This document shows, piece by piece, positions 11,927 through 48,962 of a DNA stretch of 59,660 nt. The notes under the pieces are model-generated. The model ran no database searches. It was not told the origin of the DNA and worked only from the letters and a program-made list of their open reading frames with translations. Origin of the DNA: a bacterium (lineage in GTDB: Bacteria; Vulcanimicrobiota; Vulcanimicrobiia; Vulcanimicrobiales; Vulcanimicrobiaceae); assembly GCA_021778415.1 (NCBI GenBank), contig JAJYCL010000018.1, positions 1 through 59,660 on the forward strand, read 5' to 3'. The position numbers and the translations under genes are program-made. Numbering within the stretch: the first letter of the stretch is position 1; every line of letters begins with the position of its first letter.

Positions 11927-12711
11927 TTTCACAACGAACCATTTTTACCGATGATGGTATTGCCTGCGGCTATCGCATTGCCGGGTCCGTCGAACGGACG
12001 GTTGTATTTGTTCACGGCGTCGGTTCGACGGCCGCCATTTGGGATCGACAACTCGAAGCACTTTCCGCTGACTATCGTTGTGTCGCCGTTGAATTGCGTG
12101 GGAATGGCGTTCCACGGCCGGAACCGCCCGCGGGGCATATCTCGCCGAAAGGTTTTGCGCGCGACGTTCTCGCCGTTGCCGATGTGATCGGCGTGGAAGC
12201 ATTTGATTTCGTCGGCTGTAGCCTCGGCGGCGTCGTCGGCTTCGAACTTGCTCGAATGGCCGGGCACCGCTTACGCTCGATGTGTATTCTTGGCAGCTTC
12301 GCCCGTTATCCGGATGCCGACGCCTACGCCGAGCGCATCACCCAAGCCGTCGCTACGGCCGGATCGATGCGAGCATTTGCCGAAATGCGGGCGGCGCAAC
12401 TCGGCTTGCCTCCCGATCGCCTCGAAGAAACGATTGAGCAGATGGCATGCAAAAACGTTTCCTGTTATGAAGCTGCAACGATTGCGACATGGACAAACGA
12501 TTATCGTGATACTTTATCGTCGATTCATGTGCCCACACTCGTTGCCTATGGCAAGAATGATGCCGTTGCTCCGGCTGCGCTGTCGCAAGAAATCGCGAAG
12601 GGAATCCCCGGCGCCCGACTCATCGAAATTCCCGATGCCGGCCATGTCGCGAATGCCGATAATCCTCGCGCATTTAACGCATTGCTTAAAGAGTTTTTGG
12701 CGTCGGTATAA
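11923..12711 (+). CDS. Alpha/beta hydrolase (3-oxoadipate enol-lactonase-like)
   Basis: 262-residue single-domain hydrolase. The oxyanion segment V-H-G-V-G-S-T lies near residue 30. The nucleophile elbow G-C-S-L-G-G is near 97-102, with Ser99 as nucleophile. The acid Asp is in Y-G-K-N-D-A-V-A-P and the His in D-A-G-H-V-A-N. The GTG start overlaps the polX stop by 4 bases. The 3' end overlaps the convergent fdhD by 26 bases. Closest to PcaD/esterase-type enzymes; no catabolic partners are adjacent, so the substrate is open. Confidence 0.85.
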   Translation: MISQRTIFTDDGIACGYRIAGSVERTVVFVHGVGSTAAIWDRQLEALSADYRCVAVELRGNGVPRPEPPAGHISPKGFARDVLAVADVIGVEAFDFVGCSLGGVVGFELARMAGHRLRSMCILGSFARYPDADAYAERITQAVATAGSMRAFAEMRAAQLGLPPDRLEETIEQMACKNVSCYEAATIATWTNDYRDTLSSIHVPTLVAYGKNDAVAPAALSQEIAKGIPGARLIEIPDAGHVANADNPRAFNALLKEFLASV

Positions 12712-13561
12712 TGCGCTGTTCCCCAGCATAGCAATTCGCGCGGCCATCGCGAACAAAGCCCAAGAGCGTGATGCCGAACGTTTTTGCCAGATCGACGGCT
12801 AACGAAGACGGCGCGGAGACGGAAGCTAGGATAGGTATTCGGGCGACGGCTGCTTTTGCAACAAGTTCGTAACTTGCGCGTCCGCTAACCAGCAGAATCG
12901 TGTTCGTAAGAGGAAGGCGATTCTCAATGAACGCCCAGCCGATGAGCTTATCGAGGGCGTTGTGCCGACCGACATCTTCTCGGGTTGCGAGCAACGTTCC
13001 ATCGCTGGTAAAGAGCGCTGCGGCATGCAAGCCGCCGGTACGTTCAAAAATGGATTGCGATGCACGCGCGACGGATGGCAGGCTGAGAATGGTTGCGATA
13101 TCCACGCGAAGTTGATCGTCGGAAAGTCGTTGTACTCCAAGGGTTTCGAGTCGATCGATCACGGCTCGACCGCAAATGCCGCAGGAACTCGTCATCGTAA
13201 AGTGGCGCTCAAACCGCTCGATATCGGGAAGCGCACTAGCGCGAATATCGATGTTGACGACGTTATAGCGTTGTTCGTCCGAGAGCTCGGCATCGAGGCA
13301 ATAACTGATCCCGATCATCTCATCGCGTGAAGTGATGAGCGATTCGCTGTACGCAAACCCGGCGGCAAGTTCAAAATCGTTTCCGGGAGTGCGCATCGTC
13401 ACCGCGAGCGTGCTACGTTGCGATCCGGCCCGTAGGCGCAATTCAAGAGGTTCTTCCGTAACGAGTTCGTCGGTTCGCCGATGTTCGCCGGTCCGATCGT
13501 AGGTAAGAATCGAACGCAAACGTGTGCGACCCGGTCGTTCATCTGCCGACGCTGCGCTCAT
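12686..13561 (-). CDS. fdhD: Formate dehydrogenase accessory sulfurtransferase
   Basis: FdhD transfers sulfur from a cysteine desulfurase to the Mo/W-bis-MGD cofactor, which formate dehydrogenases need for activity. 291 residues with the catalytic pair in S-S-C-G-I-C-G near residue 125. Conserved blocks T-R-E-D-V-G-R-H-N-A-L-D-K and L-L-V-S-G-R-A-S-Y-E also match the family. The start overlaps the stop of the NrfD subunit gene (ATGA), making it the last gene of the formate operon. It overlaps the end of the convergent hydrolase by 26 bases. Confidence 0.95.
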   Translation of the reverse strand: MSAASADERPGRTRLRSILTYDRTGEHRRTDELVTEEPLELRLRAGSQRSTLAVTMRTPGNDFELAAGFAYSESLITSRDEMIGISYCLDAELSDEQRYNVVNIDIRASALPDIERFERHFTMTSSCGICGRAVIDRLETLGVQRLSDDQLRVDIATILSLPSVARASQSIFERTGGLHAAALFTSDGTLLATREDVGRHNALDKLIGWAFIENRLPLTNTILLVSGRASYELVAKAAVARIPILASVSAPSSLAVDLAKTFGITLLGFVRDGRANCYAGEQRIIPTPKTL

Positions 13562-14469
13562 GTAGGCTGAGAAATTGCCGTCTGACGCACGGCGGCCGAT
13601 GCCTTTCCTGATTCGATGAATGTTTCGCGCAAGACGTATCCGCCAAGGAGCGTGAGCACGGATGCAACCACCGTGCGGGCCGCATCGACGGGTTTGGGTA
13701 ATGGAAGAATTTGGCCGAGGAGGTTAAGGGCGATCGGAACGGCGATGCCGCCGATGAGGGTTACCGTGCGAAATTTTTCCGCACGCGGGCCTTCAAACAT
13801 GGGCTTTCCGTAGTCACCTGAAACGCGGCGGAAATCCATCAGAATTGCGAATTCAACGGCAGAGGCAACCATCTCTAAACGCTCCGTCTTGACGCAGGCT
13901 TCGTGGTTTCCTTCGATGACACTCAGGAGGCTTGCTAGCGCGCACGCGCTCGCTGCTCCCGAAGAGATCGATGCGGCCGGAATATGGCGTTTGCCGGCGG
14001 CCCACAATGGCACGGCGGTGGCGCTAAGTAAGACTCCCGTGTACCCGGCGGTAAACGCGCCGAGAACGGCCTGGGCGAAGGTGAGCGCATGCGGCGCGAA
14101 ATGGCGCATCCATGACGGCAAAACGCCGCTTTGGGCGAGTTCGCGAACCATATTTGCACCCGCGGCGCCGCTGTAGAGAACCAAGCCCCACACACCGACG
14201 GACATCGGTGATTTGAGTTTCACGATGCGCATCATATGCAGGAAGCGTTCGGGGCGGCCAAGATGCGAGATGAGAATGGGCGGATTCACCGCAGCTAAGA
14301 GAAATGAGGCAATCCGCGTGGTGCGACGCAATTTGCGCATCGATTCATCACGTGGATCGCACAGCAACTGTATGAGTCCTAAGCCGCCCATAATCCCACC
14401 GAGGAAAAGATAGGTCGTTACGTTCGCGCCCCAGTGCGGTGCCTTGAGCAGCGGCTTTTCGTCGTTCAT
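13558..14469 (-). CDS. NrfD/PsrC-type membrane subunit of formate dehydrogenase
   Basis: Quinone-reactive membrane anchor, 303 residues with about eight hydrophobic helices. The N-terminus (A-P-H-W-G-A-N-V-T-T-Y-L-F-L-G-G) and the L-I-S-H-L-G-R-P-E-R-F loop are NrfD signatures. NrfD proteins bind no haem, unlike the FdnI cytochrome subunit, and pass electrons between an iron-sulfur subunit and menaquinone. It follows the FdhB gene by 3 bases and overlaps fdhD. The assignment to the FDH complex comes from this context. Confidence 0.9.
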   Translation of the reverse strand: MNDEKPLLKAPHWGANVTTYLFLGGIMGGLGLIQLLCDPRDESMRKLRRTTRIASFLLAAVNPPILISHLGRPERFLHMMRIVKLKSPMSVGVWGLVLYSGAAGANMVRELAQSGVLPSWMRHFAPHALTFAQAVLGAFTAGYTGVLLSATAVPLWAAGKRHIPAASISSGAASACALASLLSVIEGNHEACVKTERLEMVASAVEFAILMDFRRVSGDYGKPMFEGPRAEKFRTVTLIGGIAVPIALNLLGQILPLPKPVDAARTVVASVLTLLGGYVLRETFIESGKASAAVRQTAISQPT

Positions 14470-14472
14470 GCT

Positions 14473-15318
14473 CTATGCGCTCCGAAAAATCGCCCAGCCG
14501 GCGATTGCAAGACCCACGGCAATGACTGCCGCGGCGGCGTATCCATCGGGCTGTCGCGTTGAGGGGAGTACGGGGCGTTCCGGAAGATTATATACCGATG
14601 GTCGATCTTTAAGTAAAAAGAACGCGTTGAGTGTGCCGATGCCACCGCCGATATCGTCGGCGCCGTAGAGCTGTGCCGATGTTTCTCCGCGTGCATGCAA
14701 CGTTGTCACGCGCTCTTTGGCTCGTTCGCGCAAAGTAGCGACGTCACCGAATTGGATCGAGTCCGTCGGACAGGCTTTCGCACATGCCGGCACCATGCCA
14801 AGGGTTTGTCGATCATAGCAAAGCGTACATTTTCCGGCGACGCCACCGGTATGCGCGAGCGCCGTCTTGCTTGCATCGAGCCGACTCTCCTGAAGGTTTG
14901 CCGTCGAATATTTCGCCGTTCCTCCGAGTGAATCGATGAGATCGACCACCCCGAACGGGCAGGACACAACGCAATATCCGCAGCCGTTGCACACGTCGGG
15001 TTGAATATACACCGAACCAAATTCGTTGCGAATAATAGCACCCGTTGGGCAGGCTTCTAAGCATCCGGCGTTCTCACAGTGTTTGCAGACATCGCTCGAC
15101 ATGAGCCAGCGATCCTCAACGCCGTCTGGGGTTGCTGCAATTTGTTCCACGAACGCAACGTGTCGCCATGTCGTGCCCGAGAGTTCAACGGTGTTGTCGT
15201 AGGAATCTCCGGTAAAGGAAAAGCCGTCGGATGGGAGTTCATTCCATTGCTTACAAGCAACTTCGCAGGCCTTGCAGCCGATGCATAGCGTCGTATCGGT
15301 GAAAAATCCCGTTGCCAT
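14473..15318 (-). CDS. Formate dehydrogenase iron-sulfur (beta) subunit
   Basis: Electron-transfer subunit of 281 residues with four cysteine groups for [4Fe-4S] clusters: C-I-G-C-K-A-C near 12; C-K-H-C-E-N-A-G-C; C-N-G-C-G-Y-C; and a C-T-L-C plus C-A-K-A-C set. A hydrophobic C-terminal helix at about 258-277 likely anchors it to the membrane, as in FdnH/FdoH. The stop of fdhA and this start abut (15319/15318). No Tat signal is present, as expected for beta subunits. Confidence 0.93.
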   Translation of the reverse strand: MATGFFTDTTLCIGCKACEVACKQWNELPSDGFSFTGDSYDNTVELSGTTWRHVAFVEQIAATPDGVEDRWLMSSDVCKHCENAGCLEACPTGAIIRNEFGSVYIQPDVCNGCGYCVVSCPFGVVDLIDSLGGTAKYSTANLQESRLDASKTALAHTGGVAGKCTLCYDRQTLGMVPACAKACPTDSIQFGDVATLRERAKERVTTLHARGETSAQLYGADDIGGGIGTLNAFFLLKDRPSVYNLPERPVLPSTRQPDGYAAAAVIAVGLAIAGWAIFRSA

Positions 15319-18300
15319 CTACTGCGCTCCATGGGCGACGGATTCGCCGATCGTTGTTCGCATTTGTGCCGGGACGGCCATCTCGATATCCGGCGTTGCA
15401 AGCGGTGCCCGTCGTCCGGCACGAATGTTGCACGTGAGCGATTTTGATTCATGGATCGAGACGTTGGGATCCATGGAGAGTGCGATGAGTTCGCCCGGTG
15501 AATCTCCACGCGCAAAACCCATCCGGCCATAGTTATACGGGATACCGATTTGATGCACGCGCTTGCCATTGATGCGAAGCGGGCGCATGCGGCCGCTGAC
15601 AAGTGCTTTTGCTTCCATCTCGCCGAGCGCCGTCGAAATCACCATATACTCTCCGTTGCGTATGCCCTTTTCAACGGCGAGTTCGGGATCGAGTTCGCAG
15701 AAGGCTTCCGGTTGAAGCTCGGCGAGCCACGGAATGTAGCGCGTCATAATGCCGGACATCTCGGTGATGCGATAGGTCGTGAGCACATACGGATAATCGT
15801 GCGGGCTATCATTGTAGCGGTTATCCGGACGACGCCATTGCCGCATCATCGGATTCACTTCTTGAGCATAGAGCGCATTGTGAATCGGCGATTGTAGCGG
15901 CTCATAATGCGCCGGAATCGGCGCGTCTTTGAGTTCGCCTGCCGGAACAAAAAGCTGTGCGCGGCCTTGCGCGAGCATGATGAATGGATCGGCACCGGAA
16001 TGTGCATCCATGCCCGATGCTCCGGCAATCGCGGGAGTATCGGGGGCTTTTGTCTTGGGGAAATCCGGGACGTCAACACCCGTCCATTCGCCTTTGGTCT
16101 CATCCCACCAGACGTATTTTTTTCGTTCGCTCCACGGGCGACCGAGCGGATCGGCTGATGCGCGATTATAGAGCGTCCGACGATTTGCCGGCCACGCCCA
16201 GCCCCAACCAAGGGAAGTACTATCGTCTCCTACGCGTGAGCGCGCGCGATTCGTCGTTGCATCGGGGAAAACGCCGGTGTAGATCCAGACCCCCGATGCC
16301 GTGCTACCGTCATCTTTAAGATCGGCAAACGATGCCACTTGCTCGCCGGTTGCAGTAACGTATCCGTTAATCTCTTGCAACACCTTGCGCGCCGAGGGTT
16401 CACCGGGTTCACCGGGTTCATCGGGGTCATCGTACTCCCACGTCATATCGAGAATCGGACGATCTTTTTCATCGCTTGAATCGGCGTAGAGTGCTTTCAG
16501 ACGCTTGCCTAACTCATAGAAATACCACAGATCGGTTTTTGATGTTCCGGCCGGCTCAAGGGCCTTATCATGCCATTGCAGCATACGGCTCGTTTGCGTC
16601 ATCGTGCCTTCTTTTTCCAGCACCGTTGCGGCCGGAAGGAAGAAGCACTCGGTGGCAATGGTGGATGGATCGGCACCTTCTCGATTCCAAAACGACGACG
16701 TTTCATTTTCAAACGAATCGATATTGACAAACCATTCTAGGCGTTCCATAGCACTGCGCACGAGCTCGGCATTTTGCCCTGAAGCTCCGGGGTTTTGACC
16801 AATGACGAAATAGCCGCGCACGTTGCCGTCTTTCATCGCAAATGTCGTCGGTAACATCGAGTGATCCCCGATCAACTGCGGGAGATACGAAAAACAAAAA
16901 TCGTTCTCCGGTGTCGCAGCTTTTCCGTAAAACGCCTTGAGTTGCGAAACGACGTATTTCGGCATATTGGCCCACCAACCGGTCTTTTTCTGATTGCTGG
17001 CGAGATACTCGGCAAGCGTGCTCTCCGTGCGTAGCGCCGACGGCATCGGCAGATAGCCCGGTAGTAAATCGTAGAGCGTCGCAATGTCCGTTGCGCCCTG
17101 AATATCGGCGTGTCCCCGAAGTGCCATAATTCCGCCCCCGGGACGGCCGATATTTCCGAGCAGCAATTGGACTAACGCTGAGCATCGGACGAATTGTACG
17201 CCGGATGAGTGCTGCGTCCAGCCGACGGCATACGCGAATGCCGTGGTGCGTTCTCTGCCGCTATTCGCTGCAAGAATTTCGGCAATGTGCGTAAACGTTG
17301 CGACGGGAATGCCGCACGTATTTTCGACCATCTCAGGCGTGTAACGCGCGTAATGACGTCGTAAGACATTGAGCACGCAGCGCGGATGTTCGAAGGTTTC
17401 GTCGGTGACGATCTGCCCCTGTGCGTCGCGCTCGAAATCCCAAGATGTCGTATCGTAGCTTCCCGACGCTGCGTCCCAGCCCGAGAAGAGCCCGTCGAGA
17501 TCATCCGTATCCTGAAAATCTTGCCGAACGACGAATGATGCGTTGGTATACGCGCTTACGTACTCATGAAAATAGCGCTTGTTTTCGATCAGCCAAGAGA
17601 CGAGCGCACCGAGAAAAACGATGTCGGTACCGCTGCGAATCGGTGCAAAGATATCGGCGAGAGCCGACGTGCGGGTAAAGCGCGGATCGATATGGATGAT
17701 CGTGGCGCCGCGTTCCTTGGCCTGCATGACAAAGCGAAACGCCACCGGATGTGCTTCGGCAAAATTCGAACCTTGAATCAGAATACAATCTGCGTTGGCG
17801 AGATCGGGCACCCAGGCCGTCGCGCCGCCGCGCCCCATCGAGGTGCCTAGACCAGGCACCGTCGAGGAGTGTCATATTCGTGCTTGATTTTCAATTGAGA
17901 CAACACCGATGCTGTGCATGAGCTTGCCCAAGAGATAATTTTCTTCAATCCCAAAAGTGGCACCGCCGAGCGAGGCGATGGCGCGCGTATGGTTGACGCG
18001 CTTGCCATTCCACTCGCGAACGAACGTTTCGTCGCGAGTCGTTTTGATCAGCGAAGCAATGCGCTCCATCGCCCACGAGAGCGGTCGTTCTTCCCAACGA
18101 TGCGAAAACGGCGCACGGTATTTCACCGTTGTCCATCGCGCATCGTTGACCGTCATGCCGAAAATTGCCGATCCCTTCGGGCAAAGATGACCGGCATTGA
18201 TCGGACTCTCCGGATTGCCTTCGACATCGAGAAGCATCCCGGTGCTATCCGTATAGGCGACGGTTGAACAACCGACCGCGCAATACGGGCAAACAGAGAC

Positions 18301-18444
18301 GGTTGCTTTGGCGCCATTGATGCGACCACGCAGTGTTTTCGTCCGCTCGGAAGCGAGGTTGGGTAGCATCCCAACCCGCTTGCCGATTTCGCTTTGTACG
18401 TCGCGAAGAATCCCTTGGGTCACATCGATTGTCGTCTTAGCCAT
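15319..18444 (-). CDS. fdhA: Formate dehydrogenase catalytic subunit, selenocysteine-containing
   Basis: Oxidises formate to CO2 at a Mo/W-bis-MGD centre. The 1041-residue frame is interrupted once by UGA at 17874-17872, after ...N-Q-A-R-I and before H. This is the place where E. coli FdnG has Sec (N-Q-A-R-V-U-H), and a SECIS hairpin follows, so UGA is read as Sec191 rather than as a stop. The N-terminus binds a [4Fe-4S] cluster (C-P-Y-C-A-V-G-C, then L-C-P-K-G). The C-terminus has the MGD-binding domain. The start at 18444 has GGGGTGA upstream and an in-frame TGA six bases before it, so the N-terminus is complete and lacks a Tat signal. Separate shorter calls at 17872-18444 and 15319-17859 would be annotation artefacts. 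Confidence 0.95.
16396..16431 (-). repeat. Four degenerate 9-bp tandem units inside fdhA
   Basis: Units follow the plus-strand pattern GGGTTCACC, GGGTTCACC, GGGTTCATC, GGGGTCATC. They encode the acidic D-D-P-D-E-P-G-E-P-G-E-P stretch in a surface loop of FdhA. They keep the frame, so copy-number change would be tolerated. Confidence 0.8.
17838..17865 (-). promoter_or_regulatory. Bacterial SECIS element of fdhA
   Basis: On the transcript, starting 18 bases after UGA, is the apical loop GGUCU, closed by a 7-bp stem GGUGCCU/AGGCACC. A single bulged C separates this from an outer 4-bp stem UCGA/UCGA. Known E. coli fdhF SECIS has the same GGUCU loop 18 bases after its UGA and a bulged U on the 5' side, the features SelB recognises. 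Confidence 0.9.
17872..17874 (-). other. In-frame UGA recoded as selenocysteine (residue 191 of FdhA)
   Basis: The minus-strand codon TGA is flanked by ATA and CAC. The frame continues for 850 residues with clear formate dehydrogenase homology on both sides and no length change, so this is neither a frameshift nor a decayed gene. Confidence 0.93.
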
Positions 18445-18459
18445 TGCTCACCCCTACTC

Positions 18460-19785
18460 TTAGTGAGAAAGCACGGGTGCATCGCTTGGTGGTTTTTTAA
18501 CGAAGAACGGAATGATTGCGGCAACTACGAGAATGATGGCGATGGGGAGAATTGCACCGGAAAACGATCCGGTGGCATCTTTAATGCGCGCCGCAATGAA
18601 TGGCCCAACGAAACCGGCGACACCCCATGCGGTGAGAATCATCCCGTAATTTTGACCGAGTGATTTCGTTCCGAAGAAATCGGCGTTCAAGGACGGCATA
18701 ACGCCGAATCCGCCGCCGTAGCAGAGCAAGACGATGGCAAAGGCGATTCCGACGGAGACGAGATCGTGAAGGTTAAGCATGACGAAGAAGGTGACGGCCT
18801 GAATCGCATACATCACGGTATAGGTCATCGTGCGACCGAGTCGATCCGAAACGGCACCCCAGAAGATACGGCCTAGGCCGTTAAAGAGCGCGACGAGTCC
18901 GAAAACGGGAGCGATAATCGCCGGCCCAAGTTTGGTGAGTTCGCTATAGACGGCGACGGCATTAGAGATGATCGCCACGCCTCCGAGGACGTTGAGAAAA
19001 AGCAGAATCCACAAGCCATAAAACTGTGGCGTTCGTAGTGCTTGGCTAGGCGTATACCCCGACGCTGCTCCTGCCGCTGCCGTGAAGCCGCCGACACTAT
19101 AGTTTGCCGGTGGATTATCCATCACTAATGCACAGAGCCCGCCGATAATGGCAAAGACAATACCGGAGACGACAAAGACCATCATCACGGCGTGAATTTG
19201 TTCCGGTGTCAGTGATAAGTTCGTGGGATCGAATGTGGTGCCGGCTTTGATCGCTGCATCCTTCGCTTTCAAAAACGCCGCTGCGGCACCGGCCGCACCT
19301 TTGAACGAGGCGATTCGCGGAATGATCTGGTTATACACGAACGCTCCGAGACCAAATCCCATGACGACCAGACCGCTGCCTAAGCCGCGTCGATCCGGAA
19401 ACCATTTCGTGACCATCGCGACCGGGGTGATGTAGGCCATGCCATTTCCGAAGCCGCCAATGACGCCAAAGAAAATGTCGAGCCAGAGCTTTCCGAACGT
19501 CGGCGTGCCGAGACCGGCGAGTAAGACGCCAACGCCCCAAATGATTGCCCCGACGACCGTCACGGTGCGGGGGCCGACGCGATCTTGCCAGCGTCCACCG
19601 AAGACGGCGCCGAAACCTAGGAATAAGAGTGCCAATTCGAATGGAAGCGTCGCATCTTGAACGGACCAATTAAATCCGGCGACGAGCGACTGGGTGAAGA
19701 TTCCCCATGAATAGACCGTGCCAAGGCAGAGCATCACAATGACGCCTGCGATGGCAATCACCCAACGATTGGGAGTCGATGCCAT
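18460..19785 (-). CDS. OFA-family formate/oxalate MFS transporter
   Basis: Major facilitator of about 441 residues with 12 predicted helices. OFA features include the N-terminal G-T-V-Y-S-W-G-I-F motif, the G-G-F-G-N-G-M-A-Y-I-T-P block and K-W-F-P-D-R-R-G. ATG 19785 (M-A-S-T-P-N-R-W) is chosen because AGGAG lies 8 bases before it; ATG 19803 overlaps that site. It lies 15 bases upstream of fdhA on the same strand, so the likely substrate is formate. Oxalate is the family alternative, but no oxalate decarboxylase or oxalyl-CoA genes are seen. Confidence 0.9.
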   Translation of the reverse strand: MASTPNRWVIAIAGVIVMLCLGTVYSWGIFTQSLVAGFNWSVQDATLPFELALLFLGFGAVFGGRWQDRVGPRTVTVVGAIIWGVGVLLAGLGTPTFGKLWLDIFFGVIGGFGNGMAYITPVAMVTKWFPDRRGLGSGLVVMGFGLGAFVYNQIIPRIASFKGAAGAAAAFLKAKDAAIKAGTTFDPTNLSLTPEQIHAVMMVFVVSGIVFAIIGGLCALVMDNPPANYSVGGFTAAAGAASGYTPSQALRTPQFYGLWILLFLNVLGGVAIISNAVAVYSELTKLGPAIIAPVFGLVALFNGLGRIFWGAVSDRLGRTMTYTVMYAIQAVTFFVMLNLHDLVSVGIAFAIVLLCYGGGFGVMPSLNADFFGTKSLGQNYGMILTAWGVAGFVGPFIAARIKDATGSFSGAILPIAIILVVAAIIPFFVKKPPSDAPVLSH

Positions 19786-19916
19786 GAACGTCTCTCCTTC
19801 CATGCACTATCGCTAGTGCAAGCGCGGACGGCTACGGCGGCAGATGCCCCGCATACCCATCGTAACCGCTTCGCGTCGAGTCGAGATTCGCTTGCCATGC
19901 ACGACTACGCAAGCGC

Positions 19917-35159: not shown

Positions 35160-36670
35160 GTTGTGGTGGTGAACGTGGCTGAAATGGCGTCGAGGAGCGC
35201 ATCGGTATCGGCGGTATCCGAGAGAACATCGACAGGAAGTCCGTTCTCTTTCGCCGCCGCAGCCGTAATTGGGCCGATGCAGGCGATGCATTTGCCCGCG
35301 GCTGCTCGTAGCGACGCATCACGTCCGCCCAAGAGTTGCACGAAAGCAGTCACCGTCGATGCGCTGGTAAACGTCAGAATATCGGCCTTGGCAACCTTGT
35401 CGGCGTACGCCGCATCGTCGACCGCATGGGTCGCATACGCGGCAACATCGCTCACAGTACGTTGTGCTGCGCGCAACCGTTCCGGGAGGACATCGCGTGC
35501 ATCCTGAGCGCGAAACAGCAGCATGTGATCGCCAGGTGTTGTCGCCGCAATCAGTGCTGCTGCAAGCTCTTCGCCGACGGCAACCTTGGGAACGAGATCG
35601 GCGTCGATGCCGTAGTCTCTCAGTGCTGCGGCAGTCTTTGCGCCGATTGCTGCAATCTTCTGGCTGCCGAGCGCTCGTGCATCACGCTGCGATGCGTGCA
35701 GCAGATCAAAAAACCGTTCGACACCATTGCGCGAGGTAAAGACAATCCAGGTGTATGGTGCAAGTGCCGCAACCGCCGCTTCGGATGCTTGCGGATCATC
35801 CGGAGGACCGATGCGAATCGTCGAACCGAGAATCGGCTCGATCCCTCGCCGATACAGGGCGCGAGCAAACTCGTGCGCTGCTTTTGCCGGGCGCGTAATC
35901 AGGATACGTTTGCCGAAGAGCGGATCGCGATCGAACCAGCGGAGTTCTTCGCGAACGCGCACGACATCGCCGATAATCACAATCGCCGGTGCTTTCATTG
36001 CTTCGCGCACACAGATCATCGCGATATCGGCAAGTGTCCCCGTCACGGTTCGCTGCGAGGGACGCGTTCCGTTAGCGATGACGGCACAACTCGTCTGAGC
36101 CGATAGCCCGGCTTCAATAAGCTGCGCCGATATCGATGCAAGATTGCCCATTGCCATGAGCAGAACAAGGGTGCGATGCGGATCTGCGAGCTTGCTCCAA
36201 TCGATCGTCGATTCCGGTTTCGTCGGATCTTCATGCCCCGTCATTACCGTAAAAGCGGTATTGTAATCACGATGAGTGACGGGAATGCCCGCATAGGCAG
36301 GCGCTGCGATCGACGATGAAATACCGGGAACGATCTCAAACGGAATGTTGGCGGCATGTAACCGCTGCGCTTCTTCGCCGCCGCGACCAAACACAAATGG
36401 GTCGCCACCCTTAAGGCGCACGACGCGATAGCCGTCGCGTGCTTTTGCGATCATCAACGCTTCGATCTCTTCTTGCGGCATCTCGTGCTTGCCGCCGCGT
36501 TTGCCAACGTAGATCGATTCGCAGTCACTTGGCGCCAAGGCCACGATCACATCGCTCGCGAGGGCGTCATAGAGAAGAACTTCGGCGTCGGCCAGGGCTT
36601 CGGCCGCGCGCATTGTCAGCAGTCCGGGATCACCGGGCCCTGCTCCAACGAGCCAAACTTTACCCGACAA
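35156..36670 (-). CDS. CobA-HemD fusion: uroporphyrinogen-III C-methyltransferase and synthase
   Basis: 504 residues. Residues 1-245 are a SAM-dependent methyltransferase making precorrin-2: V-G-A-G-P-G-D-P-G near 8-16, G-K-R-G-G-K near 56, R-L-K-G-G-D-P-F-V-F-G-R-G near 84-96. Residues 250-500 are a full-length two-domain uroporphyrinogen-III synthase (I-L-I-T-R-P-A at its start, I-V-F-T-S-R-N-G-V, I-G-P-I-T-A-A-A-A near the end). The fusion places branch-point enzymes to sirohaem and haem together. TTG 36670 overlaps the hemA stop by 11 bases. Such fusions are known in Clostridia and other phyla. Confidence 0.93.
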   Translation of the reverse strand: MSGKVWLVGAGPGDPGLLTMRAAEALADAEVLLYDALASDVIVALAPSDCESIYVGKRGGKHEMPQEEIEALMIAKARDGYRVVRLKGGDPFVFGRGGEEAQRLHAANIPFEIVPGISSSIAAPAYAGIPVTHRDYNTAFTVMTGHEDPTKPESTIDWSKLADPHRTLVLLMAMGNLASISAQLIEAGLSAQTSCAVIANGTRPSQRTVTGTLADIAMICVREAMKAPAIVIIGDVVRVREELRWFDRDPLFGKRILITRPAKAAHEFARALYRRGIEPILGSTIRIGPPDDPQASEAAVAALAPYTWIVFTSRNGVERFFDLLHASQRDARALGSQKIAAIGAKTAAALRDYGIDADLVPKVAVGEELAAALIAATTPGDHMLLFRAQDARDVLPERLRAAQRTVSDVAAYATHAVDDAAYADKVAKADILTFTSASTVTAFVQLLGGRDASLRAAAGKCIACIGPITAAAAKENGLPVDVLSDTADTDALLDAISATFTTTT

Positions 36671-37964
36671 TGCTATCGAGTTGCGCGACTAAATCGAATT
36701 CGAACAGTTCGTCGATCACCTTGGCATCGTTGAGTGCTTGCACCGGATCGGCAATGGCCTTGGCGCGGACACGCTCGATCGCCGGATGCAGTAATCGCGA
36801 GACAATCGTCATCGTTGCACCGATGATCACTTCGCGTTCGTGATCGTTGAGCGTTGGCAGGCGAGCAAAGATGCGCTCGACTTCCGCTGCACGGATCGCT
36901 TCTGCGCGCTGGGTGAGCGACGAAATCGTCGGAACGGCTGCACGCGCGCGATACCAAAGCGCAAAACGGTCGACATGCCGGGCAATCAATCGCTCGACTT
37001 CCGGGATTGCTTCTCGACGTTGCTCCAATTTCGCATCGACGACGGATTTGAGGCCATCGATGTCGACAAGCGTGACATTGGGAATCTCGACGACATCGGG
37101 AGCGACATCGCGCGGCACGGCAATATCGACGAGGAAGAGTGGACGATGGGGGCGCTGGGCCATCGCGTGCGCAACGCTTTCTCGCGTGAGGACAAAGTGC
37201 GAGGCGCCGGTTGACGTCATTATCGCATCGGCGGCGACGAGTGCCTCGGAAAGATCGGAGAAATCCAGCGCCGAGCCATAACCGATCTCGGCGAGCAGCG
37301 CCGCCGCGCGAGCGTGCGTGCGATTAACGATAATAATATTTGCGACGCCTTCATCTTTGAGACGACGCACTGCCGTGCGCCCCATTTTCCCGGCGCCGAG
37401 AATGGCGATGGTTTTGCCGACAAGCGTCCCGAGGCGTTCGCGTGCAAGTTCGATTGCGGCAGTGGCGACGGACGCGGAAGCTGCACCGATTGCCGTGCGC
37501 GTTCTTGCTTCCTTTCCGGCCGTCATCGCGTCGCGAAACAAGCGGTGTAAACTCACCCCGAGACTGCGTGCGCTCTGCGCTTGAACGAACGCATCTTTGA
37601 CTTGCCCGAGAATCTCCGCTTCACCGATGAGCATCGAATCGAGTCCCGTCGTTACCCGAAACAAATGCTCGCTTGCGGCCGCTCCAAGATGCGTATAAAG
37701 AAACGATTCGAGATCGTACCCAATAGCACGGTGCCCGAAGTTCGAAAGAAATTTTTTGAGCTGCGCGGCGCCTTCTTCGAAGTCGTCGACTTCGGCATAA
37801 ATTTCCAGGCGACCGCAGGTTTGCAGCATCGCCGCTTCCCGGACTGCCGGATAATCGCGGAGCGCAACGAGCGCCTCGCCAAGTCGCGATGGCGGAAACG
37901 CATGGCGCTCGCGCACGTCGACCGGCGCGGTTTGATGGGAGAGTCCGAGACAAACTAGGGACAC
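36660..37964 (-). CDS. hemA: Glutamyl-tRNA reductase
   Basis: First committed step of C5 tetrapyrrole synthesis: reduces Glu-tRNA to glutamate-1-semialdehyde. 434 residues. The N-terminal catalytic domain has L-Q-T-C-G-R with nucleophile Cys at about 50. The NADPH domain has G-A-G-K-M-G-R near 188-194. A long C-terminal dimerisation helix follows. GTG 37964 gives the usual M-S-L-V-C-L-G-L-S-H start. It follows hemL by 55 bases and overlaps cobA-hemD. Confidence 0.95.
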   Translation of the reverse strand: MSLVCLGLSHQTAPVDVRERHAFPPSRLGEALVALRDYPAVREAAMLQTCGRLEIYAEVDDFEEGAAQLKKFLSNFGHRAIGYDLESFLYTHLGAAASEHLFRVTTGLDSMLIGEAEILGQVKDAFVQAQSARSLGVSLHRLFRDAMTAGKEARTRTAIGAASASVATAAIELARERLGTLVGKTIAILGAGKMGRTAVRRLKDEGVANIIIVNRTHARAAALLAEIGYGSALDFSDLSEALVAADAIMTSTGASHFVLTRESVAHAMAQRPHRPLFLVDIAVPRDVAPDVVEIPNVTLVDIDGLKSVVDAKLEQRREAIPEVERLIARHVDRFALWYRARAAVPTISSLTQRAEAIRAAEVERIFARLPTLNDHEREVIIGATMTIVSRLLHPAIERVRAKAIADPVQALNDAKVIDELFEFDLVAQLDSIVG

Positions 37965-38019
37965 GAGGTCTCTAGGGTACGGCGAATCGGCACGAGCACC
38001 CTACGGATTTTGCGGCAGG

Positions 38020-39306
38020 CTACAGTATTTCGGTGAGCGCCTCGTCGGCGGCGGCCAGGGTCGCTTCAATATCTCGTGTCGTATGGGCCGTGGAAAGAAA
38101 GGCCGTCTCAAACGCCGCCGGGGCGAGATAGATGCCGCGATCCAGCATGGCATGAAAGAATCGGGCATAGAGCGCCGTGTCGGTACTCTTGGCCGAATCC
38201 AGATCCGTAACCGGGCCCTTCGTGAAAAAGACGCCCCACATGGAGCCTGCGTAGGCTCCACAATGCGGCACGCCGTGCTTTTCGAGGAGAAGATCGAAAC
38301 CCTCGACCAGGACACGAGCAAGCACTTCGAGGCGCTCGTACAGGGTGGCATCATCGCGGATAAGTTTGAGCGTCGCGATGCCGGCGGCCATCGCCAGGGG
38401 ATTGCCGGAGAGCGTGCCGGCATGGAAGATCGAGCCGTCCGGGGTGAGTTGCTCCATAATCTCGGCTTGGCCGCCGAAGGCGCCCACCGGCAGGCCGCCA
38501 CCGATGACTTTCCCGAGAATCGTCAGATCCGGGCGAATGTGTTCGCGCTCTTGCACGCCGCCCCGGGCGATGCGAAAGCCGGTCATGACTTCATCAAAAA
38601 CTAAGAGCGCACCGTTGCGCGTGCAAAGATCGCGCAACGCGGCGAGATAGCCGGGAAGTGCCGGAACGAAACCCATGTTGCCGGCGTACGGCTCGACAAA
38701 AATTGCGGCGATGGTGTTCGGATTTTCAGCGAACGCACGCTCGACGGCGGCAACGTCGTTAAACGGGAGCACGAGCGTATCGCGCGCGGTCCCTTCGGTG
38801 ACACCGGGCGAATTGGGAACGCCGAGCGTCAGCGCACTCGAACCGGCGGAGATCAGAAAGGTATCGGCGGCACCGTGATAACAGCCGGCAAATTTGATGA
38901 TTTTATCGCGACCGGTTGCACCGCGCGCCAAACGCACGGCGGATTGCGCCGCTTCCGTTCCACTTGACGTGAAGCGCAGTCGTTCGATCGACGGCACCAT
39001 TGCGATGATCAATTCGGCCAGTTCGGATTCCGCGTTCGTCGGCGTGCCGAAGGAACTGCCCTTTGCCGCAGCCTGCGTGATCGCACGCACGACGCTTGGG
39101 TGCGCGTGCCCGAGAAGCAACGGGCCCCAGGAAAGGACGTAATCGATATACTCGTGCCCATCGACATCGCGCAAGGTCGCGCCGAGGCCCGACTCCATAA
39201 AAATCGGATTGCCGCCGACCGCCTTAAAGGCGCGTACGGATGAATTCACGCCACCGGCGATGACATTGCGCGCACGTGCGAATGCGGCGATCGAACGTTC
39301 TCTCAT
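38020..39306 (-). CDS. hemL: Glutamate-1-semialdehyde 2,1-aminomutase
   Basis: PLP enzyme making 5-aminolevulinate. 428 residues with G-G-V-N-S-S-V-R-A-F near 18-27, the F-D-E-V-M-T-G-F-R block and PLP Lys in L-G-K-V-I-G-G-G near 262-270. It is nearly identical in layout to bacterial HemL. The start overlaps the mobA stop as ATGA. Confidence 0.96.
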   Translation of the reverse strand: MRERSIAAFARARNVIAGGVNSSVRAFKAVGGNPIFMESGLGATLRDVDGHEYIDYVLSWGPLLLGHAHPSVVRAITQAAAKGSSFGTPTNAESELAELIIAMVPSIERLRFTSSGTEAAQSAVRLARGATGRDKIIKFAGCYHGAADTFLISAGSSALTLGVPNSPGVTEGTARDTLVLPFNDVAAVERAFAENPNTIAAIFVEPYAGNMGFVPALPGYLAALRDLCTRNGALLVFDEVMTGFRIARGGVQEREHIRPDLTILGKVIGGGLPVGAFGGQAEIMEQLTPDGSIFHAGTLSGNPLAMAAGIATLKLIRDDATLYERLEVLARVLVEGFDLLLEKHGVPHCGAYAGSMWGVFFTKGPVTDLDSAKSTDTALYARFFHAMLDRGIYLAPAAFETAFLSTAHTTRDIEATLAAADEALTEIL

Positions 39307-39884
39307 GAGGGGCCTTCCACGCGCGAAAAATAGCGTTGTGCATCTTGAAAATAATTGATGTTCGCGACGATGTCGCCGCCGATGGAGACATCGCGCAGGT
39401 CCATCGCTGCGACTAGTGCGGCAACGGATCGTTCGCCGCGATCAAAGAGCGGGCGTCCGAGGCGAAGGACTGCACTGCGATTGTACACGGCAAGGAGTGG
39501 TTCGCGCCGACCGTTGTAGGTCGCGATAACCCCGTCGTCATCGTCGGTAATCGCCGCAGCCAACGTCGCAAGAGTCGCTGCGGTGACCAACGGCATATCT
39601 CCCGCCACGACGGCAACATGCGATGACTCGAGTTGATCGAACGACGAAAGCATCGCGCCAAGCGGCCCGCTTCCCGGATATTCGTCAATGAGAATCCGGC
39701 AATCCATCGCGGCATCGAAGGTGAGCGAGAGATCGCTTCTCCCGGCAATCGTAAGCGGCGCAAAGCCGGTGAGGTTGTGCAATACGCGCAAAAGCAATGG
39801 GACGCCATCGAGACGAACGTCGAGTTTTCCGGGAAAACGTTTGGCTTGCCCGCCGGCAAGCACAAGGGTTGCAAAACTAGGCAT
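39303..39884 (-). CDS. mobA: Molybdenum cofactor guanylyltransferase-like protein (MobA family)
   Basis: 193 residues from ATG 39884. Nucleotidyltransferase motifs: L-V-L-A-G-G-Q-A-K-R-F near 7-17, P-G-K-L-D-V, S-G-P-L-G-A-M near 72-78, G-D-M-P-L-V and R-E-P-L-L-A-V-Y. MobA attaches GMP to molybdopterin, and bis-MGD is required by formate dehydrogenase. It sits between hemB and hemL with overlaps of 8 and 4 bases, an odd place for a Mo-cofactor gene. A related nucleotidyltransferase activity cannot be ruled out. Confidence 0.8.
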   Translation of the reverse strand: MPSFATLVLAGGQAKRFPGKLDVRLDGVPLLLRVLHNLTGFAPLTIAGRSDLSLTFDAAMDCRILIDEYPGSGPLGAMLSSFDQLESSHVAVVAGDMPLVTAATLATLAAAITDDDDGVIATYNGRREPLLAVYNRSAVLRLGRPLFDRGERSVAALVAAMDLRDVSIGGDIVANINYFQDAQRYFSRVEGPS

Positions 39885-40842
39885 GACGCCGTGCGAAATC
39901 TTCGGCGAAATACGTGATGATAATGTCGGCACCGGCGCGAACAAAACCAATGAGCATTTCGTCGATTGCGCGATCTTCATCGAGCCAACCGTTGAGCGCA
40001 GCCGCTTTGATCATCGCGTATTCGCCGCTCACATTATAGACGGCAAGGGGCGTATCGAAGGCATCGCGTGCCGCGCGAACGATATCGAGATACGGCATCG
40101 CCGGCTTGACCATGACGATATCTGCGCCTTCCTCGATATCGAGGGCAATCTCATGTAACGCTTCACGCGCATTGGGCGGATCCATTTGATAGCTGCGACG
40201 ATCCCCAAATGCGGGTGTCGAGCCCGCGGCCTCGCGAAATGGCCCGTAGAATGCCGACGCATATTTTGCGCTGTACGACATAATCACCGTATCGTGATGG
40301 CCGCTCTCATCGAGTGCCGAACGGAGGGCCCCGACGCGGCCATCCATCATGTCGCTCGGCGCGATGATATCGACGCCACTGCGAGCATAGGTGAGTGCGA
40401 CGCGGGCGAGTAGGGCAACCGTGGAATCGTTATCGACCTCGCCATGCTCGGTGAGCAAGCCGCAATGCCCGTGATCGGTGTATTCGCAATTACAGAGATC
40501 GGCGATGACCGTGAGTTCCGGCACGGCATCCTTGATCGCACGAATCGTCAATTGCACGATGCCGGATTCAGCTTCGTTCGATGATGCAACGGCATCTTTG
40601 TGCGCGGGAATTCCGAAAAGCAGTACGCCGCCAATTCCTACTGCGTGAAGTTCTTTGGCTTTTGCAACGCATTGTGCGAGTGTCATGCGTTCGATGCCGG
40701 GCATCGATGAAATCGGCCCCGCATCGTGCGCGCGCTCGCAAACAAAAAGCGGTTGCACCAGCATATCGCGACGAAGATGGTTCTCGCGAATGAACGAACG
40801 TAGCGATGCGGTGCGGCGCAGGCGCCGTGGACGGTGAATCAT
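39877..40842 (-). CDS. hemB: Delta-aminolevulinic acid dehydratase (porphobilinogen synthase)
   Basis: Condenses two 5-aminolevulinates to porphobilinogen. 321 residues from ATG 40842, overlapping the short hemD-like gene by 4 bases. Zn-type Cys cluster D-L-C-N-C-E-Y-T-D-H-G-H-C-G near 118-131. Catalytic lysines lie in S-A-K-Y-A-S-A-F-Y-G-P-F and M-V-K-P-A-M-P-Y. The longer frame to 41052 would overlap the neighbour and adds an Arg-rich non-homologous leader. Confidence 0.95.
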   Translation of the reverse strand: MIHRPRRLRRTASLRSFIRENHLRRDMLVQPLFVCERAHDAGPISSMPGIERMTLAQCVAKAKELHAVGIGGVLLFGIPAHKDAVASSNEAESGIVQLTIRAIKDAVPELTVIADLCNCEYTDHGHCGLLTEHGEVDNDSTVALLARVALTYARSGVDIIAPSDMMDGRVGALRSALDESGHHDTVIMSYSAKYASAFYGPFREAAGSTPAFGDRRSYQMDPPNAREALHEIALDIEEGADIVMVKPAMPYLDIVRAARDAFDTPLAVYNVSGEYAMIKAAALNGWLDEDRAIDEMLIGFVRAGADIIITYFAEDFARRHA

Positions 40843-41171
40843 TGCGCGAGGTATTCGCCGACGAGTGCTGCGAACGCTTCGAGGGTTGGTTCGGAGGCGA
40901 CGGCATCGGGTTTGTAGCCTGCCGCTTCGGCGGCGGCGGCAGATCGAGGCCCCATCGCGAGGATGATCGGACGGCTGGAAAGTGCATGCAAGGTTGGAAG
41001 GGCGATCTCCATCGCCGCGGCAGCCGGGATGAGGACGATCTGCGGTCGGCATGCGATAGCGGCGGATGCCGAGACTTCCACCACGTTGGCACCCATATCA
41101 CGCAGAAGGATCGCCAACCGCGACGGTTTTTCTCGCGTGCGCGGGAGCAGGATGACCGGTGCTTCAGGCAT
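40839..41171 (-). CDS. Half-length uroporphyrinogen-III synthase-like protein
   Basis: Only 110 residues, where HemD is usually about 250. The N-terminal 30 residues (I-L-L-P-R-T-R-E-K, L-R-D-M-G-A-N-V-V-E) match the start of HemD. The last 60 (I-L-A-M-G-P-R-S-A-A-A-A-E-A-A-G, then S-E-P-T-L-E-A-F) match its end. In the known fold these two segments form domain 1, and the missing middle is domain 2. Start and stop are coupled to hemC and hemB (8- and 4-base overlaps) and the frame is clean, so this looks like a compact maintained gene, not a decayed one. A full HemD is fused to CobA in the same operon. Confidence 0.75.
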   Translation of the reverse strand: MPEAPVILLPRTREKPSRLAILLRDMGANVVEVSASAAIACRPQIVLIPAAAAMEIALPTLHALSSRPIILAMGPRSAAAAEAAGYKPDAVASEPTLEAFAALVGEYLAQ

Positions 41172-42723
41172 TGCGCGCAAGGCTGAGATCTTGCCCGATA
41201 CGCACGCCGACGGCGTGGGCATCCTCGAGCGTCTCGACCGCATGAACGCTTTGGAGTCGCACGATCGCGCCGTTGGCATTGAGGGCCGCAGCCCAGACGT
41301 GCATCGTGGTGTCGGTCACGACGGCGTGAATGCCGATCGGTGCGTTACAACCGGCCTGCAGTTCTGCAAGTGCGGCACGTTCGCAGGTGACGGCGAACGC
41401 CGTGTCGCGATGGTTGATCGCCGCAAAAAGTTCGTGCCGTAACTCCGCGTCATCGGAACGAATTTCGATTGCGAGTGCGCCTTGGCCGACTGCCGGAACA
41501 AGATCGTCGATTGCAAAGGCGTGTGTATGCGTCGCCGAAATACCTAAACGACGTAAACCGGCCATGGCGAGAATGATCGCGTCGTAGTCACCATCGCGCA
41601 GTTTGCGCAAGCGTGTATCGATGTTCCCGCGAATATCGGCAAATACCAGATCCGGTCGTCGCTGTCGCAATTGCGCGACGCGTCGCGGTGAGGATGTTCC
41701 GATTCGTGCGCCGATTGGAAGGGCATCCACACTCGCATACCGTTCCGAACACAATGCATCACGCGGATCCTCGCGCTGCGAAATTGCCGCAAGTGAAAAG
41801 CCGGCTGCGAGCGAACTCGGGAGATCTTTTGCCGAATGGACTGCGTAATCGGCGCGTCGCTCGGCCAGCGCATGTTCGAGCTCTTTCACAAAGACATTTT
41901 CGCCGACGGCGGCGATGGGACGATCCACGGTGGTATCGCCACGCGTTGTGATTTGCAAGAGCGTCGTTGCAATGCCGCGTTGGGCTAATCGTGCGGCGAC
42001 CATTTTTGTCTGCGTTAGCGCTAAGGCGGAACCGCGCGTTGCACAGACGACCGACGAATGTACGCGGCTCACCGGCGTATGCAAGGCATTATGCGCTTCT
42101 TCGACGGCATTCTCGGCTTCATGCAGCGACATGTTTGCAAGGAGGGAGATATCGCGATGGGCCAAATCGCGCATGACCTCCGCGCGTTGTTCTGCTGGAA
42201 TCGTGATCTTCACCAAATCACGCATGAGCGCTAAGGTGCGGCCGGCTGCCGCGTACTCCGGGCCAAAGTGCGCGCGAATTTCCTCGGCCAAACGAAGAGC
42301 GTATGCCGGAGTGCTGCCGCCGGAATCGACCGTAAAGGTAAGTTCGTCGTTGCGCACGGTGGCCAGCATCGTGACATCGCCGCGTTCGGGATGAACGGCA
42401 TCGCAGCACAAGATGCCGTTGAGTTGCGCGAGCGTGACGACCGCGGCGTTCGTTGCATCGTTGTTCGTGGCAACGACGACGAACGTACAGCCATCGAGAT
42501 CCCCGGATTCAAACGCACGTTCAATGCGTTCGCCCCCGGAGCGTTCGATGAGTGTTCGAAGTTGCGGATCGATCTGCGGGGCAATGATGCGCAACCGAGC
42601 GCCCGCATCGATGAGAGATTGTGCCTTGCGAAGAGCGACTGCGCCGCCTCCGACGATAGCGGCCAGACGATCCGTCAGGCGAAGTGAGACCGGAAGCGAC
42701 ATGATAGCGCAAGAGTTCCGCAT
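41164..42723 (-). CDS. hemC: Fusion of precorrin-2 dehydrogenase (CysG/SirC-type) and hydroxymethylbilane synthase
   Basis: 519 residues. Residues about 10-205 are a sirohaem-synthase N-terminal module: A-I-V-G-G-G-A-V-A-L-R-K near 22-33, V-V-V-A-T-N-N-D, V-D-S-G-G-S-T-P-A-Y, oxidising precorrin-2 and possibly inserting iron. Residues about 225-519 are HemC: R-G-S-A-L-A-L, H-S-A-K-D-L-P-S, the G-T-S-S-P-R-R loop, and cofactor Cys in L-Q-A-G-C-N-A-P-I-G. GGGAGG lies 12 bases before ATG 42723; ATG 42702 is an alternative. First gene of the tetrapyrrole operon. Confidence 0.93.
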   Translation of the reverse strand: MRNSCAIMSLPVSLRLTDRLAAIVGGGAVALRKAQSLIDAGARLRIIAPQIDPQLRTLIERSGGERIERAFESGDLDGCTFVVVATNNDATNAAVVTLAQLNGILCCDAVHPERGDVTMLATVRNDELTFTVDSGGSTPAYALRLAEEIRAHFGPEYAAAGRTLALMRDLVKITIPAEQRAEVMRDLAHRDISLLANMSLHEAENAVEEAHNALHTPVSRVHSSVVCATRGSALALTQTKMVAARLAQRGIATTLLQITTRGDTTVDRPIAAVGENVFVKELEHALAERRADYAVHSAKDLPSSLAAGFSLAAISQREDPRDALCSERYASVDALPIGARIGTSSPRRVAQLRQRRPDLVFADIRGNIDTRLRKLRDGDYDAIILAMAGLRRLGISATHTHAFAIDDLVPAVGQGALAIEIRSDDAELRHELFAAINHRDTAFAVTCERAALAELQAGCNAPIGIHAVVTDTTMHVWAAALNANGAIVRLQSVHAVETLEDAHAVGVRIGQDLSLARNA

Positions 42724-44459: not shown

Positions 44460-45935
44460 TTATTTGAATCCGTTGACCGCTTTGACGTCCACGGCTGCGG
44501 CTTTGTTCGGCCCGAGACCGCCGCGAATATAGGTGATGACATCGGCGATCTGCTGATTGGTAAGATTGCCTTTCCACGCAGGCATCATGCCGTTGTAATC
44601 GGATGAGCCGACATGGATTTTTCCTTGGAGCCCGTTGAGCAGAATACCGATGACTTTGCCCGGATCTCCGGTCACCGTCGCGTTGCCTGCAAGCGGCGGA
44701 AACGCGCCCGGCATGCCTTCGCCGTTTGCACCGTGGCACGATGAGCAATTCTGTTTATAGACGGATGCGCCGGGCATCGGTCCTGCCGGTGCGCCTGCAG
44801 CCCCGGTCGCGCCGGCGACGGCGGGAGCCATGGTCGCCGCGTTTGCTTCGGCGAGAATTTGCGCTTGCGGTTTGGATGGAGGCGCGGCTGCTTCTTTTGC
44901 GGTTATCGAAATTTGACTGTAGATCGAGAGGCCGACAATCACCGCGACGGTGATGACGGTGCCCCAGATAATCGGCAGGCGAGCGCCGATGTTGCGTGTC
45001 GTGCTGCGATCGATCCACGGCAGTGCAAAAACGACAAGAATGAATAGCGTCGGTACGACGATGGTCGCCAGCAATTCAAACTGTGCCGGCACCAGCGTGA
45101 GCATACCGAAGAGTGAAAGAAAGTACCAGGCCGGATACGGAATAAACGTTGTAACGGTTGGATCGGCTTTTTCATCGAGGAATGGCGGCGCAAAATATGC
45201 CAATGCGTAGATCACCGCAAAGACGGCGATCGCGCCGACGGTGTCCATGAAAATTTGATCCGGGAAGAATCGTCCGACTTTGAGTTTACGCGGATCATCG
45301 CTGATCGGGCCGGCTCCGCCGTTGTGGCGGAAAATCGCGAGATGCATACCGACGAGCGCAATAAGGACGGCCGGCATCAACCACACGTGCAAACCGAAGA
45401 AACGATTGATCGTCTCCGTGCCCATCGTGCCGCCGCCTTGGGCGATATTTTGCATCAGTGATCCGGCAATGGGCGCCGTGCCGGTGATATTGAGTGCGAC
45501 TTGCGAGGCAAAGTACGCGTTCATATCCCATGGCAAGAGATAGCCCGTTAGGCCGAGCACCAAGGTGACGACGAGCAGCACGACGCCGACGACCCATTGC
45601 AACTCGCGCGGAGATTTATATGCTCCCCAAATCAAGACTTGCAAGAGGTGCAAGAAGACCAGCGCAATCATTGCCGACGAGCCCCAATAGTGCAGCGAAA
45701 GCACCATGTGCTGGAACGGATTATTGTAAATGGCGACGGTCGATTCCCACGCGGTTGCAGCCGATGGGGCATAGAAGAACGTGAGGAAGATGCCCGTTGC
45801 GATCTGCATGATCATCGCGAACATCGTTGCGGAGCCGAAGACATACCAGTAGCTTGCGCCGCCGGGAATATCTTCGGTCAGGAAATCTTTGGCCATCGTG
45901 ACGAGGCCGGTGCGGCTATCAAGCCAATTCAACAT
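44460..45935 (-). CDS. Cytochrome b (b6-type) fused to a C-terminal cytochrome c domain
   Basis: Quinol-oxidising subunit of a Rieske/cytochrome b complex, 491 residues. Haem b ligands appear as His82, His96, His183 and His198; the 14 residues between the last pair are typical of b6-type proteins. About 8-9 helices run to residue 340. An A/P-rich linker of about 45 residues follows, then a mono-haem c domain with C397-S-S-C-H401 and a Met ligand candidate in M-M-P-A-W. The Qo motif reads P268-A-W-Y271, not PEWY or PDWY. The gene follows the Rieske gene by 18 bases. No separate cytochrome f or c1 is present, so the fused domain likely replaces it. Confidence 0.93.
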   Translation of the reverse strand: MLNWLDSRTGLVTMAKDFLTEDIPGGASYWYVFGSATMFAMIMQIATGIFLTFFYAPSAATAWESTVAIYNNPFQHMVLSLHYWGSSAMIALVFLHLLQVLIWGAYKSPRELQWVVGVVLLVVTLVLGLTGYLLPWDMNAYFASQVALNITGTAPIAGSLMQNIAQGGGTMGTETINRFFGLHVWLMPAVLIALVGMHLAIFRHNGGAGPISDDPRKLKVGRFFPDQIFMDTVGAIAVFAVIYALAYFAPPFLDEKADPTVTTFIPYPAWYFLSLFGMLTLVPAQFELLATIVVPTLFILVVFALPWIDRSTTRNIGARLPIIWGTVITVAVIVGLSIYSQISITAKEAAAPPSKPQAQILAEANAATMAPAVAGATGAAGAPAGPMPGASVYKQNCSSCHGANGEGMPGAFPPLAGNATVTGDPGKVIGILLNGLQGKIHVGSSDYNGMMPAWKGNLTNQQIADVITYIRGGLGPNKAAAVDVKAVNGFK

Positions 45936-45953
45936 CGCGCAAATTCCTTACGA

Positions 45954-46619: not shown

Positions 46620-46722
46620 GTATACCTCTGCGAAGCGAACGAGAAATGCGAAGGGTTTCCTTCGGTATGATTCTACTCGCGGCCTCGCGCTCTCTCCCCC
46701 GACTAACCTCGGACGGCCCTCT

Positions 46723-48950: not shown

Positions 48951-48962
48951 AGGTCTTCTACG

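Follow-up and report, generated by a model that had tools for sequence, protein, structure and literature searches.

The window analyzed here, a stretch of 59,660 nucleotides, almost certainly encodes an ordinary bacterial selenoprotein formate dehydrogenase (FDH) of the FDH-N (FdnG) family, with the in-frame UGA at codon 191 of its catalytic subunit gene predicted to be read as selenocysteine (Sec). The evidence comprises the reading frame, the codon itself, a conserved RNA helix downstream of it, the Sel genes of the host genome and a conserved operon (Table 1).

The catalytic subunit gene and its UGA codon

Translation of 18444-15319(-) with TGA read as Sec yielded a single frame of 1041 codons, the sole interruption being UGA at codon 191, in the context ENQARI-U-HSSTVPGLG. 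An earlier reading of the DNA (the first-pass annotation) had described one frame interrupted by UGA alone, at N-Q-A-R-I-U-H, and had anticipated that automatic callers would split the gene; both points were borne out, with standard ORF calling dividing the alpha (catalytic) subunit into pieces of 190 aa and 846 aa. The span that it assigned (17838-18444) took in the 5' part of this gene as far as the SECIS, and not the whole gene.

Profile searches of the alpha subunit revealed a score of 989.9 bits against TIGR01553 (FDH-N type; curated cut-off 814.2; residues 31-1008) and of 1389.5 bits against the actinobacterial formate dehydrogenase model NF041513, slightly below its cut-off of 1400. The Pfam domains Molybdop_Fe4S4 (PF04879), Molybdopterin (PF00384) and Molydop_binding (PF01568) were also identified. 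Among solved structures, the best matches were to selenocysteine formate dehydrogenases, at E 4e-237, and to E. coli formate dehydrogenase N (1kqf). The alignment to the closest solved alpha subunit, that of Desulfovibrio vulgaris FdhAB (W/Sec; 6sdr, 6sdv, 8bqg, 8cm4), spanned residues 33-1008 and took in the catalytic residue; PDB entries of this kind, 6sdr and 8bqg among them, are here assumed to be the D. vulgaris formate dehydrogenase. In a structure-sequence alignment, residue 191, part of the active-site motif U191-H, fell on the catalytic Sec of D. vulgaris FdhA. The initial identification as a selenocysteine formate dehydrogenase with UGA at the known Sec position was thus upheld by the TIGR01553 score and by this alignment.

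Across the closest 80 relatives with a named genome of origin, we tallied by hand the codon homologous to 191. TGA was present in 60/80 and TAG in 20/80, and a Cys codon in 0/80. By record title, the TAG carriers were Geodermatophilaceae (Blastococcus, Geodermatophilus, Goekera) plus one record labelled as an unverified Bacillus, and the TAG-type Geodermatophilaceae formate dehydrogenases keep the same SECIS downstream. UAG-Sec has reportedly been described in Geodermatophilaceae. The Actinomycetota NF041513 group, which has UGA- and UAG-Sec members, contains related actinobacterial, chloroflexotal and acidobacterial enzymes with the same SECIS; in contrast to its UAG members, the window enzyme uses UGA, and it groups apart, in a clade (support 98-100) formed by metagenome-assembled genomes (MAGs) of Vulcanimicrobiota (Eremiobacterota) and of unclassified bacteria. 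Sec at stop codons other than UGA is already known (review PMC10778597).

Table 1. Location of the features described in the text, in window positions unless a contig (C) or locus (L) of the analysis is given.
Feature	Location	Strand	Details
MFS carrier, lactate / oxalate-formate antiporter group	18460..19803	-	NF049980 362.7 bits, cut-off 320; upstream of alpha
fdhA/fdnG-type formate dehydrogenase catalytic (alpha) subunit	15319..18444	-	1041 aa, predicted Sec at residue 191; TIGR01553, Pfam and structure match
Predicted Sec UGA, codon 191	17872..17874	-	Translation; homologous codon TGA/TAG in closest relatives, never Cys
SECIS hairpin	17833..17868	-	7-bp apical helix GGUGCCU/AGGCACC, loop GGUCU, lower stem with bulged C; fold, covariation, Rfam, R1
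Apical loop GGUCU	17849..17853	-	18 nt after UGA
FdhB-type iron-sulfur (beta) subunit	14473..15318	-	TIGR01582 165 bits, under cut-off; Fer4 domains; hydrophobic C-terminal segment
NrfD-type membrane subunit	13558..14469	-	PF03916 67.8 bits
FdhD sulfurtransferase, needed for formate dehydrogenase maturation	12686..13561	-	PF02634; NF001943 above cut-off
selA	C8:42082-43146		419.7 bits
selB	Directly after selA, running off the end of C8; remainder at the end of C59		SelB winged-helix domain PF09107 in the C59 piece
tRNA-Sec	C59:2674-2763		68.5 bits, gathering score 47; anticodon UCA
selD	C12:85315-86238		352.9 bits; own in-frame TGA, motif SSCAG-U-AGKL
Loci with TAG at the Sec codon	L058-L060, L062, L066-L068, L070, L072, L074, L078, L079, L083, L084, L086, L090, L093, L094, L096, L100

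The SECIS hairpin

The 36-nt hairpin downstream of the UGA folded at -20.4 kcal/mol (z -3.56), and 1/200 shuffles was equally stable; this fold check, proposed in advance, favored the element. Against Rfam SECIS_3 (RF01989) the hairpin scored 34.8 bits (E 3.5e-6), under the gathering score of 63 bits. A published bacterial SECIS model has limits that include an upper stem of 4-16 bp, a loop 16-37 nt from the UGA and an MFE of <= -7.5 kcal/mol (PMC13188914). All four limits of this model are satisfied by the 5-nt GGUCU loop, the 7-bp stem, the 18-nt spacing and the folding energy. A further model, R1, was built on 34 FDH hairpins with the window sequence among them. The window hairpin was the only R1 match in the genome (67.3 bits, for a sequence that is itself one of the 34), E. 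coli fdhF was matched weakly (13 bits), and R1 did not detect the selD site of the same genome. Other SECIS types would escape this genome search, given that R1 derives from FDH hairpins.

Conservation of the helix was analyzed across 69 distinct sequences, with positions numbered so that the UGA is 0-2. Pair 17-29 was standard in 69/69 sequences, with six pair types (shuffling expectation 31.8), as was pair 20-26 (shuffling expectation 60.7). Both connect third codon positions, those of Val and Gly codons in the case of 17-29, and the pairing is therefore not explained by protein coding. Compensatory changes between wobble positions thus keep the apical helix across the 69 distinct relatives. 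The helix was 95.8% paired over the 34 chosen sequences, compared with 33-57% for slid-helix controls, and its outermost pair, 14-32, was paired in 53/69. The loop was GGUCU in 54 sequences, AGUCU in 9 and AGUUU in 6. We also considered a conserved outer stem below the bulge and rejected it, with pairs such as 8-38, 9-36 and 11-34 forming in 9 to 26 of the 69 only. Relatives thus do not keep the lower stem into which the window's sequence folds by itself, and our claim is limited to the 7-bp apical helix.

The first-pass annotation had called this SECIS near-canonical, on the grounds of a GGUCU loop exactly 18 bases from the UGA, as in E. coli fdhF, and a 5'-side bulge. The loop and its spacing were confirmed on the MG1655 sequence (GGTCT, 18 nt), and the hairpin lies immediately downstream of the UGA in both genes; E. 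coli fdnG carries an AGTCT loop in the same register in MG1655. The bulge also exists, as C13 at the base of the apical helix, but it is not the bulge of E. coli. In fdhF the bulged nucleotide is U17, inside the apical helix, where it has a functional role. Position 17 of the window hairpin is a G paired with C29, the best covarying pair of the helix, with compensatory variation in relatives; C13 is therefore not the equivalent of the fdhF U17, and the helix is uninterrupted. If the fdhF type is defined by a bulged U17 in the apical helix, the window hairpin does not belong to it. The loop and spacing are canonical and the bulge is not.

Selenocysteine machinery and its distribution in the phylum

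The host genome is an Eremiobacterota (Vulcanimicrobiota) MAG of 2.59 Mb in 61 contigs, with 95.6% completeness. The presence of selA, selB, selC and selD elsewhere in this genome had been predicted from the window, with absence of the whole Sel machinery named as evidence to the contrary; we found all four, and the host accordingly has the Sec-decoding trait as judged by gene content. The selB gene is broken across two contig ends, and its larger piece scored below the TIGR00475 cut-off. In this genome selD is a selenoprotein gene too, with UGA at L019:1531-1533 (C12). A small possible loop, GGC-UGGU-GCC, has its GG in the FDH SECIS register after this UGA; the fold is weak, and no Rfam SECIS match was found at the site.

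The nearest relatives of the window protein came from MAGs titled Eremiobacterota, Vulcanimicrobiota or simply bacterium. In the tree, the protein grouped within a 16-row clade of such MAG rows (support 98), inside a larger group that included Chloroflexota and Pseudomonadota rows. Further Eremiobacterota copies were placed elsewhere in the tree, which indicates more than one gene lineage within the phylum. Among 148 sampled genomes of the phylum, the FDH family was identified in 72/148 (match threshold E <= 1e-100), and every match covering residue 191 had an in-frame TGA. SelA was found in 120/148 genomes, including 70/72 of those with the FDH; the two FDH genomes lacking it, G096 and G127, are 83% and 70% complete, respectively. 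The host comes from a poorly studied phylum in which sel genes are present, in line with the earlier suggestion of selenoprotein synthesis in a deep-branching phylum.

SelD was found in 117/148 genomes. By hand count, approximately 74/119 SelD places had an in-frame TGA and 45 had none (some of the 45 being fragments), indicating that SelD switches between Sec and other residues across Eremiobacterota; this alternation is a possible system in which to study Sec/Cys exchange. In approximately 50 sampled genomes SelA was accompanied by no match to the window's formate dehydrogenase at E 1e-100, and these genomes probably encode other selenoproteins or FDHs of greater divergence. At G045:C35:49190-52141 lies a frame with two in-frame TGA codons, that of a distant formate dehydrogenase relative (41% identity). 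No paper joining Eremiobacterota or WPS-2 with selenocysteine was found in the literature searched, most subscription journals lying outside that search.

Predicted complex, alternative readings and significance

The minus-strand gene order is MFS carrier, FdhA-Sec, FdhB, NrfD-type membrane subunit and FdhD. Where close relatives had enough flanking sequence, the beta, NrfD-type and FdhD genes almost always lay downstream of alpha; in most of these relatives the carrier lay upstream of it. The window complex resembles E. coli FdnGHI in its TIGR01553 alpha subunit of similar length, its Sec codon at the catalytic site, its FdhB-type partner and its loop at 18 nt. However, E. coli FdnG has the twin-arginine motif SRRQFFK, whereas no twin-arginine motif was seen in the translated N-terminus of the window alpha subunit, and the cytochrome b gamma subunit FdnI is replaced by an NrfD-type protein (PF03916). 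Defined by a cytochrome b gamma subunit and a Tat-exported alpha subunit, the FdnGHI type does not include the window operon. The operon also differs from D. vulgaris FdhAB, adding an NrfD-type membrane subunit to an alpha subunit that has no twin-arginine motif.

In the mechanism we propose, SelB carrying Sec-tRNA(Sec) would bind the hairpin just 3' of the UGA and codon 191 would be read as selenocysteine. The Mo/W-bis-MGD centre with its Sec ligand would then oxidise formate, the substrate suggested by homology, or reduce CO2. Electrons would pass through the FdhB iron-sulfur clusters to the NrfD-type membrane subunit, with quinone as the probable acceptor. From the NrfD-type subunit and the alpha subunit without a twin-arginine motif, we infer a cytoplasm-facing complex that delivers electrons to quinone via NrfD. 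FdhD would activate the formate dehydrogenase, and a possible role of the MFS carrier is uptake of formate or of a small acid akin to it. Genes read by eye at 44460-49733 (a cytochrome b/c fusion, a Rieske protein and cytochrome c maturation-like genes) are a plausible downstream route for the quinol electrons. Also by eye, a tetrapyrrole-like cluster (hemA-, hemL-, hemB-, hemC- and cobA/hemD-like) was seen at 36660-42723 (-), with a MobA-like nucleotidyltransferase within it at 39303-39980.

Three other explanations of the UGA were weighed. That a Cys codon was misread in sequencing or assembly, with the hairpin a coincidence, might be suspected in a window that comes from a MAG and at a TGA one base away from TGC or TGT. 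The conserved codon and SECIS refute this doubt, which the first-pass annotation itself raised, and the probability of such an error is negligible: TGA or TAG occupies the site in 80/80 of the closest relatives, all phylum matches spanning it have an in-frame TGA, and compensatory third-position changes preserve the hairpin. The UGA, being kept in relatives, is not a sequencing error. A decaying pseudogene cut by a nonsense mutation would likewise give the two ORFs that standard gene callers report, yet it is refuted by the same conservation and is just as improbable. The protein matches functional families over its full length with no further lesion in 1041 codons, its operon partners are intact, relatives have the same codon and the Sel gene set is complete. 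Insertion of a residue other than Sec, such as Trp or Cys placed there by near-cognate readthrough or under a reassigned code, is very improbable. It draws on the fact that Sec at residue 191 is predicted from sequence and not from a peptide; it is opposed by a dedicated tRNA-Sec (UCA) together with SelA, SelB and SelD, by the SECIS, by the position of the codon at a known Sec ligand and by the other examined genes of the window, which are full-length under table 11 with TGA as stop.

The function of the enzyme could also be read differently, as a Sec molybdopterin oxidoreductase whose principal activity is CO2 reduction, or conversion of some other small substrate, and not respiratory formate oxidation. 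The membrane partner is of the NrfD type and not a cytochrome b, the neighboring carrier has its best score with lactate-type MFS proteins, and enzymes of the FDH-N family are reversible, all of which would suit such a role. However, the best-matching families and structures are formate dehydrogenases and FdhD is encoded within the operon, and we consider this alternative unlikely. A Sec-containing formate dehydrogenase of the FDH-N family is the reading we prefer.

The chemistry of this enzyme is textbook, and the modest news lies in the absence of the U17 bulge and in a host from a little-studied phylum. Among bacterial selenoproteins, formate dehydrogenase and SelD are named as those of widest occurrence (PMC5029168), with formate dehydrogenase foremost (PMC5029168, PMC13188914), and the known pattern is therefore extended and not changed. 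Recognition of the Sec codon corrects an annotation error to be expected from gene callers across the phylum, the splitting of each such gene into two ORFs. Sec decoding is probably widespread in this poorly studied phylum, given the frequencies of SelA and SelD. Tentatively, and with somewhat more doubt than belief, we propose a broader picture in which Sec decoding is common and largely unreported in Eremiobacterota, their formate dehydrogenases face the cytoplasm and are NrfD-anchored, and their SECIS helix is fully paired with no bulged U. If this is true, the fully paired apical helix would imply that SelB recognises the hairpin somewhat differently. The finding connects the largely uncultured Eremiobacterota with selenium supply and with the use of formate for energy.
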